From: a virus
Length of the DNA stretch: 33,720 nt
Reading direction: 5' to 3' (one strand)
IMG/VR virus record: IMGVR_UViG_3300037278_000160
Span: 1 to 33,720 of that record
Shown here: one piece after another, positions 1,506 to 14,390 of the stretch
Layout of the letters: each line of letters begins with the position of its first letter
Numbering within the stretch: position 1 is the first letter of the stretch
Notes under the pieces: model-generated
Told to the model about the DNA's origin: nothing
Seen by the model: the letters and a program-made list of their open reading frames with translations, nothing else
The model's database searches: none
Position numbers and translations under genes: made by a program

Positions 1506-1650
1506 TTATCTACGAAGGTATAAGACTGGCATTACAAAAAAGCATGCTTTAATTATCTACGAAGGTATCAGACTAGCATTACAAAAAAGCATGCTTTAAT
1601 TATCTACGAAGGTATAAGACTGGCATTACAAAAAAGCATGCTTTAATTAT
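1470..1650. repeat. Four 47-bp direct repeats in ABAB order
   Basis: Copies begin at 1470, 1517, 1564 and 1611. Types A (GGTATCAGACTAGC) and B (GGTATAAGACTGGC) alternate A-B-A-B. Both bases that differ are synonymous when read as [11 protein letters not shown]-stop, the C-terminus of the preceding gene. Each copy carries the perfect 12-bp palindrome AAAGCATGCTTT. The period is not a multiple of three and each copy has its own stop, so only the first copy is translated as part of the gene. The last copy ends at the 3' end of the opposing methyltransferase, so the array fills the gap between convergent genes. Confidence 0.95.
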
Positions 1651-3169
1651 TCAACTCCATGTAGGATTCTATAAAGATTTGCGCTTGCGGCGCGACGATG
1701 CAGTTGCCGTAGGCGCGCAGCTTGACCATGCGGTTCGTGGGTCGAACGATCCCCAATGAATCTTGTGAGCTACTATTAAATTTAAATTCTCCGAGAGGAA
1801 AGCTAGCGGGGGCATTCTCGTAGATGTTGGGATACGTAGCTTCCGATGCAAACCGTGCCACTGCTGATGACAATAGACGCAAAGCGTTTGCAAATTCTCG
1901 ATGCGATTGTCCTGCCAGTTTTCGTTGATGTGGTGAATTGCAAGTTTGTATGTTTTGCCACAACATTCGCAAGTCTCTTTGAGTGCCATATCGCGCGCTT
2001 GTACCATGCGTTGCGTCCTGCTCTCCCCAATTTTCCCTCGTGTATTCGAGCAGGTAAGCGAGCAAAATCTGCGTTTCATGAACGAGCAGTAATCTTCCTC
2101 CCCACTCAAAAAGGTTCGTGCAATTAACTGTTTCCCGCAACGTTCGCAGAATTTCTCCGGCTTGTGTCTGTAATCTATTCGACGCTTCATTTAACGCATC
2201 CTCGACTTTAATTTTGAGATTGGTGCACAAAGGTCCCATTCGTAAGGGAGCCCCATCAACCATCTGCTGAATTCTGGCCTCAACGGGCCTCCACTTTCCA
2301 TCCCGGCAGAAGAGCCAATCAGCATCTCGCCAGAAGCCGTTAGTCGGGCAGCTTGGGGGTTGTCCCGCAATAGGTTCCGTATGCTGTCTGTGTAGCGATT
2401 GTTCCCTGCCTGATGACCGTTTGTTATGCTGGGGCATGTCGGTGTGTTCGGCCAACCTGCTAAATTGGCAAAGTCCTGCAATCTCACTTGACGCTTTGTC
2501 CCGTCCTCCCGATACATTTCTGTCGGCTGTGGCGCTCGATCGTTGTTGCATGAGGTCGTCGGCCACCCCGCTAACCACACTGTTCGACCCAATAACGCGT
2601 TGATTGGGACGTTTTCGCATTCCGCCCCATCCTTCCAATCTCTTACTGTCGCTGTCGGCCACCCAGTAAAGCCTGTCGCGGATGTGCGGAGCACCGACGC
2701 TCGCAGCCGGAAACGGCACCGCCCCAAAGGCGTAACCCATTCCTTCCAGGTCAGTTTGTACAAGGTCGATCCAAGATTCTGCGTCTTTGCTCGCAACCTG
2801 TTCACCAAAGATAACGTCAGGTTTGCACTGGGTGACGAGGTGGTAGAAGTCAGGCCACAAATGCCGCTCGTCAGCAAACCCAGATTTTTTGCCTGCCGTG
2901 CTGAAAGGTTGGCAGGGGCAAGATGCTGTCCAAACTGGTCTATTGTCATCCCACCCAGCACATCGTAATGCGTAGGACCAGACTGCAACGCCAGCAAACC
3001 AGTGACACTGGATAAAGTTTCTGACATCACTTGGAAGCACATCTTCGATTGATCGTTCATCGACTTCTCCTGGGGCTACAAGCCCCGCCTTGATTAAGTT
3101 TCTAATCCATTGCGCAGCGAGTGGGTCAATCTCATTGTAATAAGCCCATTTTTTAGTTAAAATGTTCAT
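1643..3169 (-). CDS. dcm: DNA (cytosine-5-)methyltransferase, Dcm-like, extended by an insert
   Basis: This enzyme transfers a methyl group from SAM to cytosine C5, usually to hide phage DNA from host restriction. Residues 8-60 carry the AYYNEID...[10 protein letters not shown] phage-type N-terminus. The catalytic motif IV CPCQPFS, the motif VI variant GEQVASKD and [14 protein letters not shown] follow, then a variable recognition region. The C-terminal [20 protein letters not shown] is motif X-like. Motif I reads [11 protein letters not shown] where relatives have FAGIGGWSYAL, which may weaken SAM binding. At 508 codons it is longer than the usual 330-360, because about 500 bases (roughly 1720-2220) encoding an HNH nuclease lie before the last conserved block, yet the frame stays open. 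No good ribosome site precedes the ATG. Confidence 0.8.
1669..2190 (-). CDS. HNH endonuclease embedded in the methyltransferase gene
   Basis: The 173-residue frame starts at ATG 2190 with GAGG nine bases upstream. Its core holds CERCGKQ...CS..CSN, then [20 protein letters not shown] and [14 protein letters not shown]. These are the paired CxxC zinc sites and the His-His/Asn/His pattern of HNH nucleases. It lies on the same strand as the methyltransferase, one frame away, and begins immediately after the stop of the overlapping open frame at 2191. The last 25 residues ([18 protein letters not shown]) do not look like nuclease but match the tail expected for that overlapping frame. It behaves like a homing-type insertion. 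A group I intron is possible, but I identified no intron core. Confidence 0.75.
   Translation of the reverse strand: MKRRIDYRHKPEKFCERCGKQLIARTFLSGEEDYCSFMKRRFCSLTCSNTRGKIGESRTQRMVQARDMALKETCECCGKTYKLAIHHINENWQDNRIENLQTLCVYCHQQWHGLHRKLRIPTSTRMPPLAFLSENLNLIVAHKIHWGSFDPRTAWSSCAPTATASSRRKRKSL
2191..3060 (-). CDS. Long overlapping sense frame with its own family signature
   Basis: This 289-residue frame lies wholly inside the methyltransferase gene, one frame away. It contains [56 protein letters not shown] and [17 protein letters not shown] recall this residue pattern from proteins encoded beside or over cytosine methyltransferase genes in other phages, including the GWPTPT and WLMG-P-EW blocks. 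It stops exactly where the HNH frame begins, and its expected tail ([11 protein letters not shown]) reappears at the end of the HNH frame. Either both frames are translated, or this frame is conserved only because the methyltransferase constrains it. A ribosome site for ATG 3060 is not obvious, although GGAG lies a few bases upstream. Confidence 0.45.
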
Positions 3170-3191
3170 TTTAATAGATGGAGTTACGCGT

Positions 3192-3731
3192 ATGTATAGG
3201 AAGGTTTGTAGCCACTGCTCATCCGAGTACGATACAAAGCACTCAAAAAGTCTTTACTGTTCGCAAAAATGCGGGGCAGCGTATCGGTGGTCTGCGTCAG
3301 AAAAAGACACATCAAAACCAAGGGAGTGCTTAGAGTGCAAGAAACAATTTTTTGCAAAGCCAGATGCAAACCAGCAAAGAATTTGCTCGGATGAATGCAG
3401 GAGAACAAGGAATAGCAGGAAGGTTCGCGAGTTCCATTCTGCAAATCCAGACCGTGAAAATTGGTACAGGGCTCGGACGAAAGAAAAGCAACTTCCTGAC
3501 TCAAATCAGATTCGTTTTTTCCGCACAAACCCACTTGCTCCAAGATGTTGCGAGTCATGCGGAGAAACCCGTGTTTTGGAAATCGCACATCGCCCAGAAC
3601 ACGAAAGGAACGGAAAAGGAAGAAGCATTTCAAACTGCAAATGGCCTGAAATGGTTTGGGTGTTATGCCCAACATGCCACCGACTTCTCGACAGAATGAA
3701 CTACCCGCCAAAAGACCTTGGTCTGAAGTAG
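3192..3731 (+). CDS. HNH endonuclease inserted opposite to the methyltransferase genes
   Basis: The protein has 179 residues from ATG 3192, which has GGAG about eight bases upstream; the ATG at 3162 lacks a site. There are two zinc-finger-like units, CSHCSSEY...YCSQKCGAAY and CLECKKQF...ICSDECRR. The nuclease part follows: CCESCGETRVLEIAHRPEHERNGKG...LCPTCHRLLDRM, with the CxxC/CxxC pair and the catalytic AH. It is the only rightward gene in a long leftward block. It sits between a truncated methyltransferase 5' end (3738-3894) and the full-length gene starting at 3169. This placement fits a homing nuclease that interrupted a methyltransferase gene. It needs its own promoter, which I could not identify. 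Confidence 0.8.
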   Translation: MYRKVCSHCSSEYDTKHSKSLYCSQKCGAAYRWSASEKDTSKPRECLECKKQFFAKPDANQQRICSDECRRTRNSRKVREFHSANPDRENWYRARTKEKQLPDSNQIRFFRTNPLAPRCCESCGETRVLEIAHRPEHERNGKGRSISNCKWPEMVWVLCPTCHRLLDRMNYPPKDLGLK

Positions 3732-3737
3732 ATAAGA

Positions 3738-3894
3738 AATGACATTGGCTATATCCGGCAAGATCGCTCGGTTTAACATCTGAAATACTCCTGTTGTCCA
3801 CATGACCTGGCGCAATATGGCCTGCTTTAATTAAATTTTCCAACCATTGGCATACGGTAGGGTCGATCTCGTTGTAGTAAGCGAGATGAGTCAT
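3738..3894 (-). pseudogene. 5' fragment of a second cytosine methyltransferase gene
   Basis: From ATG 3894 the first 54 codons read [12 protein letters not shown]...IKAGHIAPGHVD...YSQCHF. This is clearly homologous to the start of the complete methyltransferase at 3169 but diverged at many positions, so it is not a recent duplication. Homology stops at QCHF, just before the codons for SAM-binding motif I, within about ten bases of the end of the opposing HNH gene. The reading frame then runs on through the antisense of the HNH gene to a stop at 3184, only 15 bases before the ATG of the complete gene. The start overlaps the preceding gene by ATGA. The protein would lack every catalytic motif. 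Confidence 0.75.
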
Positions 3895-6590: not shown

Positions 6591-6800
6591 TCACACTTTA
6601 TCGCAGTTGTGATAAATGTCGACCTGATCGTATCGGCAAAGATTCTCAATAGAGTCCAGTGTTTCGTCGGTATTATCAAATGATTGTTCGCAACACCCGT
6701 CCGCGCAGTTCATCCATTTATCCATCCATATAAACACGTGCCAGTGAACACTATCGCCAGCTTCCAGATGCTGTTTAACTTTTTCGCGATCAAGTGTCAT
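6591..6800 (-). CDS. Small hypothetical protein with clustered Cys and Trp
   Basis: The protein has 69 residues and GGAG upstream of the ATG. It is acidic and contains HWHVFIWMDKWMNCADGCCEQSF, with histidine, tryptophan and three cysteines close together, which might bind metal. It overlaps the end of the Cys-repeat gene by 11 bases and is therefore likely co-translated. No family recognised. Confidence 0.55.
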   Translation of the reverse strand: MTLDREKVKQHLEAGDSVHWHVFIWMDKWMNCADGCCEQSFDNTDETLDSIENLCRYDQVDIYHNCDKV

Positions 6801-7560
6801 GGTTTACTCCAGATAAATTCGCCCGAAGTTTCATATCAGCTAAAGCGTCGTCGTTTGAATCATAAAATCGATTTGGGTTAATTGGCGAACCACTTTCGCG
6901 ATAGATTAACTGTGCGGCGAGAGCCGTTGAATTGAAAAATTTTTCGAGCGCATAACCTTCATCACCCGCTAAATGAACTACCCACCCAGCCCTGCAATGT
7001 GTTGTGTTGCAGGTGTGCCAGCGCCCCATATTTAACGCGATTGGTGTTGCAGTTACGGCAGCGTAAATTACTTTGTCGATATTTTCAATTTTTGGTATTT
7101 TAAGCGTATCGGATTTGCCCACGCAATCGCTGCAATCGCTGCAATCGCTGCAATCGCTGCAATCGCTGCAATAGCTGCGATCTCTGCAACCGCTGCAACC
7201 GCTGCAACCTCTGCAATAGCTGCAATCGATGCAACCGCTGCAATAGCTGCAATCGATGCAACCGCTGCAATAGCTGCAATAGCTGCAATAGCTGCAACCG
7301 CCGCAATAGCTGCAACCGCTGCAATAGCAGCAACCTCTGCAATAGCTGCAATCTCTGCAACCGCTGCAACCGCTGCAATCGATGCAATAGCTGCAACCGC
7401 TGCAATCTCTGCAATCTATGCAATCTCTGCAATCTATGCAATCTCTGCAATTCTTGTTTCCGTTAGCGTCCATTTGCTTCGCTTGTTCGTCAGCTAATTC
7501 TTGAGAAACATAACTGACCCTAACGTTACCTTTTTCCGTTTTCTGCGATTCGAATCTCAT
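6790..7560 (-). CDS. Protein with 36 Cys-x-x triplets and a conserved C-terminal domain
   Basis: The 256-residue protein has a short charged N-terminus (1-37), then a cysteine every third residue from about 38 to 146. The two variable positions are drawn from S/R/I/G/C and D/G/Y. One cysteine is replaced by Arg (CRDRSYC). The C-terminal 100 residues form a normal domain: VIYAAVTATPIALNMGRWHTCNTTHCRAGWVVHLAGDEGYALE. I recall this domain in other phages with the same kind of repeats. The repeat region could form a triplet-helix or a disulphide- or metal-bound rod. It follows the previous gene by six bases. Function unknown. Confidence 0.75.
   Translation of the reverse strand: MRFESQKTEKGNVRVSYVSQELADEQAKQMDANGNKNCRDCIDCRDCIDCRDCSGCSYCIDCSGCSGCRDCSYCRGCCYCSGCSYCGGCSYCSYCSYCSGCIDCSYCSGCIDCSYCRGCSGCSGCRDRSYCSDCSDCSDCSDCSDCVGKSDTLKIPKIENIDKVIYAAVTATPIALNMGRWHTCNTTHCRAGWVVHLAGDEGYALEKFFNSTALAAQLIYRESGSPINPNRFYDSNDDALADMKLRANLSGVNHDT
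7123..7450. repeat. 9-bp tandem repeat array encoding Cys triplets
   Basis: About 36 units of the 9-mer GCAATCGCT and variants (GCAACCGCT, GCAATAGCT, GCAATCTCT, GCAATCGAT) run head to tail. The GCA bases that encode Cys are almost invariant, while the other two codons vary within a narrow set. The array is open in other frames too, giving false ORFs of Leu/Gln/Arg repeats. Confidence 0.95.
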
Positions 7561-7566
7561 ATCAGT

Positions 7567-7773
7567 TTACCCTATGTTTTTGTTAGCGCAAGTCGCGCAT
7601 AAAATTTTAGTCCGGCGCGAAAGCCTCGGATTCTCAAGCTGCATCGTGTCAAAGTATCGTTCACCGGGTTGTATGTGGTTTAAACACAGCGGCACCAAAC
7701 AATGCCGTTTTATTCTTGCAATGCGCCAGCATCCGGCATATTTTGTAGTGTAAAAATCGGCTTGGGTTGTCAT
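7567..7773 (-). CDS. Small cysteine-containing hypothetical protein
   Basis: This is a 68-residue basic protein with GAGGGTGG before the ATG. It contains WRIARIKRHCLVPLCLNHIQPGERYFDTM and ends in KILCATCANKNIG. The pattern C-x4-C-x2-H-x-GE-Y with a later CxxC is like the treble-clef 'interrogation' motifs of small phage zinc proteins, including the one at 3891-4226. It begins MTTQ, like the gene upstream of it, and overlaps that gene's stop (ATGA). Confidence 0.6.
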   Translation of the reverse strand: MTTQADFYTTKYAGCWRIARIKRHCLVPLCLNHIQPGERYFDTMQLENPRLSRRTKILCATCANKNIG

Positions 7774-8606
7774 GCCACCCTCACAAATTTATGATCGTAG
7801 TCCAGTTTGTACGCAACGTTAGCTTCAATTCCATCCTCGCCGGTGTATCCGACAACTGTGCGATACCGTTCATTTTTTGAATCCCAATATTTAATGCAAA
7901 TTGTGCCGTAGTCGCCCGCTGTGGCAGTGCCGTAGTCGCCCGCTGTGGCAGTGCCGTAGTCGCCCGCTGTGGCAGTGCCGCTATAGCCCGCTGTGGCAGT
8001 GCCGCTATAGCCCGCTGTGGCAGTGCCGCTATAGCCCGCTGTGGCAGTGCCGCTATAGCCCGCTGTGGCAGTGCCTCTATGGCCCGCTGTGGCAGTGCCG
8101 CTATAGCCCGCTGTGGCAGTGCCGTAGTCGCCCGCTGTGGCAGTGCCGCTATAGCCCGCTGTGGCAGTGCCGCTATAGCCCGCTGTGGCAGTGCCGCTAT
8201 GGCCAGTTAATGCATTTTCAGTATCTCCGACAATTACAGTTGCGCCAATTACAGCGACTTTTGCGCATTGAGGCTCATTAGCGATAAGGAAGTCGGTTGC
8301 TGATTTTTTATCGCCGATAAATCGAACCACGCCGCGTTCAAATTTGCATTTTCCGTCCAACATCACAATATTTTCGGTAATGACTTCAACGACGAGCCAT
8401 TTTGCGGTTTCATCCAAATACTCACTACATGAATGATCACCTTGACCATATAACCAGCCATGTAGACCATTTCCACATTCGGCATTCGGTTTCCAATCTG
8501 GTGCAGTTGCTACCTCACCAACTGATGGCCATTTGAAACCGTTTTTAGATGTCATGTCAGCGCGGCATGTGCGCAGAATGAGACTTGTTTTAACTTGGGT
8601 TGTCAT
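7770..8606 (-). CDS. Protein with GTATAG-x-x octapeptide repeats
   Basis: The 278-residue protein has ACCGGAGATT before the ATG. Residues 1-134 form a conserved head: NGLHGWLYGQGDHSC...AKWLVVEV...CKFERGVVRF. I recall this in phage proteins of unknown function (DUF7666-like). Residues about 135-238 are 12 copies of GTATAG plus a variable dipeptide (YS, DY, HR or HS). The T-x-T and AG-Y elements recall ice-nucleation-type beta-solenoid repeats, but that is a resemblance by eye. The last 40 residues form a normal tail (YRTVVGYTGEDGIEAN). It is the first gene after an operator-bearing promoter. Confidence 0.7.
   Translation of the reverse strand: MTTQVKTSLILRTCRADMTSKNGFKWPSVGEVATAPDWKPNAECGNGLHGWLYGQGDHSCSEYLDETAKWLVVEVITENIVMLDGKCKFERGVVRFIGDKKSATDFLIANEPQCAKVAVIGATVIVGDTENALTGHSGTATAGYSGTATAGYSGTATAGDYGTATAGYSGTATAGHRGTATAGYSGTATAGYSGTATAGYSGTATAGYSGTATAGDYGTATAGDYGTATAGDYGTICIKYWDSKNERYRTVVGYTGEDGIEANVAYKLDYDHKFVRVA
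7892..8204. repeat. 24-bp tandem repeat array
   Basis: About 13 units, each pairing a constant part (CCCGCTGTGGCAGTGCC) with one of a few variable 7-mers, run head to tail inside the preceding gene. The DNA constant part is nearly perfect between units, which points to recent expansion or ongoing homogenisation rather than old divergence. Confidence 0.95.
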
Positions 8607-13616: not shown

Positions 13617-14390
13617 ATGCAAGCATTTCACAACAAACCCGAAGTAAAACAATTTTACGTTGATCGTTTAACAGAACATCATCGACTTGATCAAATAATT
13701 CAAGGAACCGGATTTGATGGTTCGCGAGGCTGCAACGTTGGTTGTATTTTGCATGCGTATCAACATGATCGTTATCCAATAGAACTCGGTTTACCTGAAT
13801 GGTATGCACAGTTATGCGACACAATTTTCGAAGGTCTGCCAAAAGAAAATGCGCCAGCATTCGCTATGTCAACTTTGAGCGCGATTAAAATTGGTGTTGA
13901 TATTGAGCATGTTCGGTGGCAATTGGCAATCGAACGCCATCAAATTGATTTACTTCGATTAAAAGATAATTCGGAACCGTATGCTCGCGAATGTGAAATT
14001 GCGATTCAAAAGGTTATTGATTATTGTTTTGATGAATTGAATCATGTATTTAAAGACAATGAGTCGGCGGAGTCGGCGGCGAGGTCGGCGGTGCATTCGG
14101 CGGCGAGGTCGGCGGTGCAGTCGGCGGCGAGGTCGGCGGTGCAGTCGGCGGCGAGGTCGGCGAGGTCGGCGGCGAGGTCGGCGAGGTCGGCGGTGCAGTC
14201 GGCAGCGTGGTCGGCAGCGTGGTCGGCGGCGGAGTCGGCGGTGCAGTCGGCGGCGAGGTCGGCGGAGTCGGCGGCGAGGTCGGCGGAGTCGGCGGCGAGG
14301 TCGGCGGAGTCGGCGGCGAGGTCGGCGGTGCGTAACCATTTTATTTGGGAAGCCGAAACTTTGATTCGATTACTCACTGAGATTAACTAA
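13617..14390 (+). CDS. Conserved phage protein with Ser/Ala repeat tail
   Basis: The 257-residue protein has CCGGAGAAT before its ATG. Residues 1-147 are a conserved domain (MQAFHNKPEVK...GCNVGCILHAYQHDRYPIELGLPEWY...IFEGLP) that I recall from many phage and prophage early proteins, usually with an Ala-rich variable tail. Residues about 150-237 are tri- and tetrapeptide repeats (SAAR, SAVQ, SAR, SAES, SAAW). They probably form one long amphipathic helix with Arg/Glu on one face. The protein ends with a short helix (WEAETLIRLLTEI). It is the first gene of the rightward arm. Function unknown. Confidence 0.75.
   Translation: MQAFHNKPEVKQFYVDRLTEHHRLDQIIQGTGFDGSRGCNVGCILHAYQHDRYPIELGLPEWYAQLCDTIFEGLPKENAPAFAMSTLSAIKIGVDIEHVRWQLAIERHQIDLLRLKDNSEPYARECEIAIQKVIDYCFDELNHVFKDNESAESAARSAVHSAARSAVQSAARSAVQSAARSARSAARSARSAVQSAAWSAAWSAAESAVQSAARSAESAARSAESAARSAESAARSAVRNHFIWEAETLIRLLTEIN
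14064..14329. repeat. GC-rich 9/12-bp tandem repeats
   Basis: Units built on TCGGCGGCGAGG or TCGGCGAGG are mixed with TCGGCGGTGCAG and TCGGCGGAG variants. The region is much richer in GC than its surroundings and is open in several frames on both strands, which creates spurious ORFs (poly-Arg, Ala-Asp-rich). Mixed 9- and 12-base units keep the reading frame. Confidence 0.9.

Follow-up and report, generated by a model that had tools for sequence, protein, structure and literature searches.

Two HNH endonuclease genes at one phage cytosine methyltransferase locus, each apparently sparing its host gene

Introduction

One C5 cytosine methyltransferase (MTase) gene of a virus probably harbors two selfish HNH elements of different kinds, each of which appears to spare the gene that it inhabits. 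Both HNH genes and the MTase gene lie within a single 2.3-kb locus of a 33.7-kb virus record, and the whole of this record (33,720 nt) is the stretch of DNA analyzed here, referred to below as the window. The outer element would be a homing-type cassette consisting of an HNH gene on the opposite strand and a replacement 5' end for the MTase gene with an altered motif I. The inner element would be an out-of-frame HNH gene of the kind known as the ShiLan domain, situated immediately ahead of the motif X codons.

Free-standing homing endonucleases that spread by 'intronless homing' are known from the seg and mob genes of phage T4, and in phage Aeh1 the HNH gene mobE is inserted in a functional region of nrdA (PMC2988022). 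In fungal mitochondria, mobile ORFs carry replacement C-termini, as in atp6 of Allomyces and in atp6, atp9, cox2 and nad3 of Glomus (PMC3630166). The ShiLan domain, described in 2025, is an HNH domain that is encoded out of frame in mycobacteriophage methylases, the host frame remaining open and neither an intron nor an intein being present; how such hidden nucleases are translated was left as an open question in that study (PMC11855218). A search of the literature on overlapping genes with cytosine MTases and on duplicated 5' ends gave nothing on point besides this paper and its precursor (PMC9957025).

In this study, the architecture of the locus, its open frames and the selection acting on them, the mosaic of 5' end and body in the MTase gene, the association of motif I with the outer HNH gene and the ribosome-binding site of the inner HNH gene are documented at the level of sequence.

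Organization of the locus

The complete MTase gene occupies positions 3169-1643 on the minus strand as one continuous frame of 508 amino acids (frame A), which matches phrog_363 (E = 7e-77) and PF00145 (E = 3e-15) and contains motif IV (PCQPFS), a motif VIII region and a motif X region (LRAYGN). The outer HNH gene lies on the plus strand as an ORF at 3162-3731 (phrog_1271, HNH, E = 5e-11), the likelier start of which is the ATG at 3192 (MYRKVCSHC...). Its stop codon adjoins a second MTase 5' end on the minus strand (3894 to about 3733), which runs for 53 codons from an ATG to ...SQCHF, matches phrog_363 (E = 1e-15) and is cut at the motif I codons. This fragment is regarded here as the displaced 5' end, or scar, of the resident C5-MTase gene. 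When the scar region is aligned with L090, which among the relatives that share this outer HNH gene is the closest, MTase homology extends up to HFFA and HNH DNA lies beyond. The 5' end that the complete gene now uses, from the start codon through the altered motif I (3010-2975), spans 2975-3169 on the minus strand; from the grouping of 5' ends and from motif I, it is the putative replacement 5' end and would travel with the outer HNH gene.

Frame B, which is +1 relative to the MTase frame, encodes an overlapping phrog_1008 gene on the same strand (2191-3060, start uncertain; E = 3e-29). The inner HNH ORF (1669-2190, minus strand) is also read in the +1 frame, and its ATG directly follows the TAA of phrog_1008. 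Its assignment is based on its relatives and on PF01844 (E = 2e-5; 25 bits against a cut-off of 21.4 in the Pfam search). The inner insertion itself measures about 510 bp (1718-2227, minus strand), is open in the MTase frame and is absent from L090; the last 20 codons of the HNH ORF (about 1731-1672) correspond to the old phrog_1008 tail.

This layout bears out most of what the first-pass annotation of the locus had described, namely a 5' MTase fragment cut at QCHF beside an opposite-strand HNH gene, a complete MTase gene after it and a second, same-strand HNH gene before the last conserved block (YGN). It needs correction in that the MTase frame is not broken by the inner HNH gene: all 508 codons are open, the HNH being encoded in the +1 frame.

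The outer HNH gene and the scar

The family of the outer HNH gene is small and comprises the window and its near-copies, seven other viral loci and one locus in a genome of Cupriavidus respiraculi. The loci include L157 (= L090) and L158-L164, with L159 (= L055) and L160 (= L037) being mutually close. Identity to the outer HNH is 96% for L090/L157, 61% for L158, 49-53% for L159-L163 and L166, and 36% for L164. The protein matches an HNH family of PHROG only, with no Pfam match, and its C..C, AH, N and CPTCH positions are conserved; in the phages collection no match was obtained for it at E <= 1e-5, and the inner HNH had few matches there. In every locus examined the gene lies on the opposite strand and abuts the MTase start. 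No intron or intein was found around the gene.

Beyond the HNH stop codon, a displaced 5' MTase fragment is found in the window, L090, L158 and L166, and also in L164, where the scar belongs to another MTase family and is cut at motif I (AIDLFCGL). The scars of L158 and L166 end about 14 codons before motif I, and the junction is not one exact codon. Five outer-HNH loci (L159-L163) have no scar, which is hence not an obligatory feature. Two MTase starts were present in only two of the first 81 loci collected, the window and its near-copy, and no locus without the outer HNH gene was found to have a duplicated start.

A phage may contain several MTase genes, and the arrangement could in principle have arisen from two such genes lying side by side, the upstream one having been truncated by a deletion and the HNH gene being a bystander between them. 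The identity of only 65% between the scar and the start of the complete gene would agree with such an origin. However, the order of 5' scar, abutting opposite-strand HNH gene and complete MTase gene recurs in L158, L166 and L164, the last with an MTase of another family; the scar borders directly on the stop codon of the HNH gene; a second 5' end is absent from all unlinked relatives of the first sample; and the 5' ends and bodies of the linked genes differ in history, as described below. Two adjacent MTase genes are thus considered a rather improbable source of the scar, and its displacement by an incoming outer element is preferred.

Altered motif I and mosaic structure of the MTase gene

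Ordinary motif I has the form FAGxG, for example in QCHFFAGIGVW, whereas in HNH-linked MTases it reads FAGVA, FAGIA, FSGIA, FCGIA or FCGIL. An altered motif I was present in 8/8 linked versus 1/88 unlinked MTases (p = 7e-11, uncorrected for kinship), and it accompanies HNH linkage in all five phylogenetically independent pairs (p = 0.06, with only five pairs available). The sole unlinked MTase with an altered motif I in the tree set is that of L065 (QCHFFAGIAVWS), in which the motif perhaps remained when an outer HNH gene was lost.

The two parts of the linked genes were found to have different trees. In the tree of the MTase body, seven label changes are needed for the linked genes and a single clade is rejected (AU p = 0.0001). 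In the tree of the 5' end (57 columns), which is weakly supported, two changes are needed and a single clade is not rejected (AU p = 0.18). Four changes are needed when the motif I columns are removed, so that part of the 5'-end signal is motif I itself. The body of the window gene groups with unlinked MTases, and its 5' end, downstream of the HNH gene, groups with HNH-linked 5' ends. Since the linked bodies reject one clade and the 5' ends do not, the association of the altered motif I with the HNH gene is, on these trees, not one of whole-gene descent. A similar unevenness is seen in the DNA identity between the window and L090, which is about 90% for the HNH gene and the new 5' end, about 69% for the scar and about 77% for the gene body.

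The altered motif I could alternatively mark a functionally different MTase subfamily that is merely linked to the HNH gene, rather than a target resistant to cleavage. Loss of the second glycine of FxGxG should affect cofactor binding, and L065 has the altered motif without a detectable linked HNH gene, both of which are in keeping with a subfamily. However, the rejection of a single clade for the linked bodies means that they do not form a subfamily, and it is only the 5' end that follows the HNH gene. A distinct subfamily is accordingly judged unlikely, and a 5' end that travels with the nuclease and has a modified target is favored.

The arrival of the outer HNH gene together with a piece of another MTase allele is well supported by this mosaic. 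It had been suggested earlier that both nucleases came with pieces of other MTase alleles; this is supported for the outer gene and needs modification for the inner one, which is an out-of-frame element in an unsplit MTase gene. Clean insertion of the outer HNH gene into a single allele was also considered and is ruled out by the mosaic of 5' end and body.

The inner HNH gene in an open MTase frame

The extent of the inner insertion is apparent from the spacing between the WRPVE and YGN codons, which is 24 or 40 codons in uninterrupted relatives and 179-194 codons in genes with the insert; the long C-terminus had been put forward as a feature to be looked for in relatives without the HNH gene, and it does not occur in them. 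L090 provides an empty site, and its uninserted motif X region reads ...CCCGAGTGGTCAAGCTGCGCGCCTACGG.... In the 40-codon class of uninterrupted relatives (ARLGRVEPGVARVASSNRVGRLKGYGN), inspection revealed a doubled RxGR block that resembles the flanks of the inner insert; this class may bear the trace of an inner element that has since been lost.

Relatives of the inner HNH were gathered by HNH homology alone, down to about 35% identity. In all 29 loci, which include Komagataeibacter phage phiKX1 and Staphylococcus phage CUB-EPI_14 (36% GC), the HNH gene is in the +1 frame and the host frame across it is free of stops. Shuffling of synonymous HNH codons gave an expectation of 2-10 stops per locus in the host frame, against none observed in 29/29; for CUB-EPI_14 the expectation was 8.7. 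The remaining (third) frame contains stops at the expected level, and in four more distant HNH relatives the host-type frame is closed, with 14-24 stops, near their own expectation. The C, H and N columns of the HNH motif are invariant in the alignment of the relatives. The host proteins are phrog_363-type C5-MTases, other C5-MTases (PF00145) and phrog_1008-type proteins that end in the motif X block; the host of L118 was assigned to none of these types. The insert is situated before the motif X codons in several MTase types and before motif IX in the Staphylococcus phage, and the motif X block 3' of the insert is kept. Judged by these counts, the open MTase frame over the inner HNH gene is maintained by selection.

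Long spurious open frames are frequent in GC-rich phages. An MTase frame that is open by chance or composition, in a dead MTase gene where only the HNH matters, would agree with this and with the shuffle probability at some single loci, which is only 0.07 for L094, for example. However, none of the 29 loci has a stop, the phage of 36% GC included, the remaining frame behaves as expected and the motif X block is preserved. An accidental open frame in a dead gene is therefore regarded as very improbable. Chance alone as the source of the open frame is ruled out by the codon shuffles together with the HNH relatives that have closed frames.

Group I introns are a frequent home of HNH genes, and an unrecognized spliced intron or intein would be a further explanation of the inner insert. 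The same question was weighed for the ShiLan domain by its authors (PMC11855218). However, no Rfam match was found up to E = 1 and no intein domain was found with Pfam, and an open host frame in 29/29 loci would be needless for an intron. A spliced element is consequently thought extremely improbable. Because these intron and intein signals are missing and the host frame is kept open by selection, splicing of the inner insert is unlikely, and because the MTase frame runs through the insert, no splicing is needed; an HNH gene read out of frame within a continuous MTase frame remains the preferred interpretation. As individual candidates, a group I or group II intron was rejected on the Rfam result, and an intein was rejected on the Pfam result and on inspection of the ends of the insert in the MTase frame, which are without an intein signature.

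In the GenBank entry of phiKX1 (LC644975.1; L082, 2501-4084), hypothetical proteins are listed for frame B, for the tail region and for an opposite-strand ORF; the MTase frame and the HNH gene are both missed.

Translation start and overlap with phrog_1008

An AGGA, GGAG or GAGG motif at suitable spacing precedes the HNH ATG in 17/23 loci, compared with 11% of other nearby ATGs (p = 2.5e-12), and in the window a Shine-Dalgarno (SD)-like GAGGA lies upstream of the inner HNH ATG.

In 71 uninterrupted relatives, frame B contains 16 stops versus 247 expected from shuffling of the MTase codons, and the remaining frame of the same relatives contains 999 versus 861 expected. The overlap of phrog_1008 with the MTase gene is, to judge from these numbers, real and under selection. 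Among the relatives of this MTase type that bear the HNH gene, most have a frame B that terminates immediately ahead of it with WDxCA and a short basic tail. The HNH frame then enters a second copy of the frame B tail in the window, L096, L100, L140 and L082, and in L098, which is on the same contig as L010, frame B is fused to the HNH.

Duplicated but diverged flanks had been reported for both insertions. For the outer element they are clear. For the inner element the copies in the window are 24 nt long and 50% identical (p = 0.24), too diverged to score, and the duplication is instead demonstrated in relatives, at 79% in L098 (p < 0.0005) and with p = 0.002-0.03 in L082, L140, L100 and L096. 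What is 'duplicated' on the left side in these relatives is the block encoding the C-terminus of phrog_1008, the overlapping gene. We infer that the inner element resupplies the tail of frame B.

A different arrangement is seen in L104 (2022-3458), L112, L103 and L114, where the open host frame itself encodes the phrog_1008 domain and continues, past the out-of-frame HNH, into a motif X block. In the window, by contrast, phrog_1008 shares its frame with the HNH; the relative frames of the modules have shifted from one lineage to another.

Predicted structures

The AlphaFold model of the inner HNH is good (pLDDT 80.6), although confidence is low at its end, in the stretch read from the former frame B tail. 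A fold search of the PDB with this model gave weak matches, mostly to HNH nucleases, the best being SciA of phage T5 (E = 0.006). The AlphaFold model of the MTase is good up to residue 176 and in the final C-terminal helix of motif X, and it is unreliable between these parts apart from short helices; within the inner insert the pLDDT is 30-60 for most residues. The predicted MTase structure speaks neither for nor against tolerance of the insert.

Proposed mechanism and comparison with known elements

The outer cassette would have entered the resident MTase gene at its motif I codons, pushing aside the original 5' end, which persists as the scar, and supplying a new 5' end that was joined to the resident gene body. 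Its altered motif I codons would protect the linked allele from the nuclease. The inner HNH would have a ribosome-binding site of its own and be translated in the +1 frame, right after the phrog_1008 stop, and the MTase frame would cross the insert, which would add about 170 residues to the protein. Cleavage, homing, resistance and continued MTase function are what we infer from comparison of the sequences.

The nearest phage relatives of the outer HNH gene in mode of life are the T4 seg and mob genes, which it resembles in lying outside any intron or intein and beside its probable target gene. However, the free-standing T4 enzymes cut at sites hundreds to thousands of base pairs from their own gene (PMC2988022), whereas less than about 200 bp would separate the start of the outer HNH gene from its putative target, and the displaced old 5' end remains in place. 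Like the fungal mobile ORFs, the outer element would combine an endonuclease ORF with imported sequence that substitutes for a portion of the host gene, the native portion being displaced and kept as a diverged duplicate. In the fungal elements it is the 3' end that is replaced and the enzymes are mostly LAGLIDADG or GIY-YIG, whereas the outer element involves the 5' end, an opposite-strand HNH gene and a phage. The fungal end-replacing elements may thus have a phage counterpart in the outer type, which offers a testable target, namely the motif I codons in their ordinary and altered forms.

As with the ShiLan domain, the inner HNH is encoded by an insert in a methylase gene, in a frame other than that of the host; the host frame is open and there is no intron or intein. 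The start of the ShiLan insert resembles the sequence that follows its insertion site; here such a resemblance is seen in relatives, clearly in L098, L082, L140 and L100, with p = 0.24 in the window. In contrast to ShiLan, the inner HNH resides in C5-MTases, in the +1 frame and before motif X or IX, and belongs to another HNH subfamily; it is further distinguished by the SD motifs before its ATG and by insertion inside a second, overlapping gene. The record of ShiLan gp65 is of a methylase of the DPPY type with the HNH in the third (+2) frame, and the ShiLan HNH and the inner HNH are only weakly similar (31%, E = 1e-4). Because of these differences in methylase type, frame and HNH sequence, the inner HNH is best regarded as a separate lineage of the same kind of element. 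Insertion of mobE differs from the present case in that nrdA is split into separate coding regions, whereas the MTase here stays one continuous frame.

The locus would then present two splice-free ways in which a homing-type gene can inhabit a protein gene without killing it. The inner type, so far known from mycobacteriophages, in which both the class of methylase and the frame are different, now includes a separate and widespread lineage in C5-MTases, and its SD motif and stop-ATG junction bear on the translation question raised for ShiLan. We lean slightly towards a wider proposal, that phage HNH elements persist in genes by carrying the parts that they would destroy: the outer nuclease with a cut-resistant 5' end that rewrites motif I, and the inner one by resupplying the tail of the overlapping gene and keeping the MTase frame open. 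If this is true, one stretch of DNA would hold two layers of protein code, and the host gene would be spared without introns or inteins.

Repeats elsewhere in the window

Four tandem-repeat regions were observed in the window. At 1466-1650, a 47-bp repeat in 3.9 copies overlaps the 3' end of the MTase gene and the C-terminal codons of a plus-strand ORF (1146-1505). At 7123-7451, a 9-bp repeat in 36.6 copies lies inside a Cys-rich ORF (6790-7560, minus strand) with repeated xDCxxC units, and at 7914-8204 a 24-bp repeat in 12 copies encodes repeats of GTATAGYS in an ORF at 7770-8606 (minus strand). Repeats of 12 and 21 bp at 14063-14328 lie in an ORF at 13617-14390 (plus strand) with repeats of the ARSAVQSAARSA type, where the other frames are also long and open.
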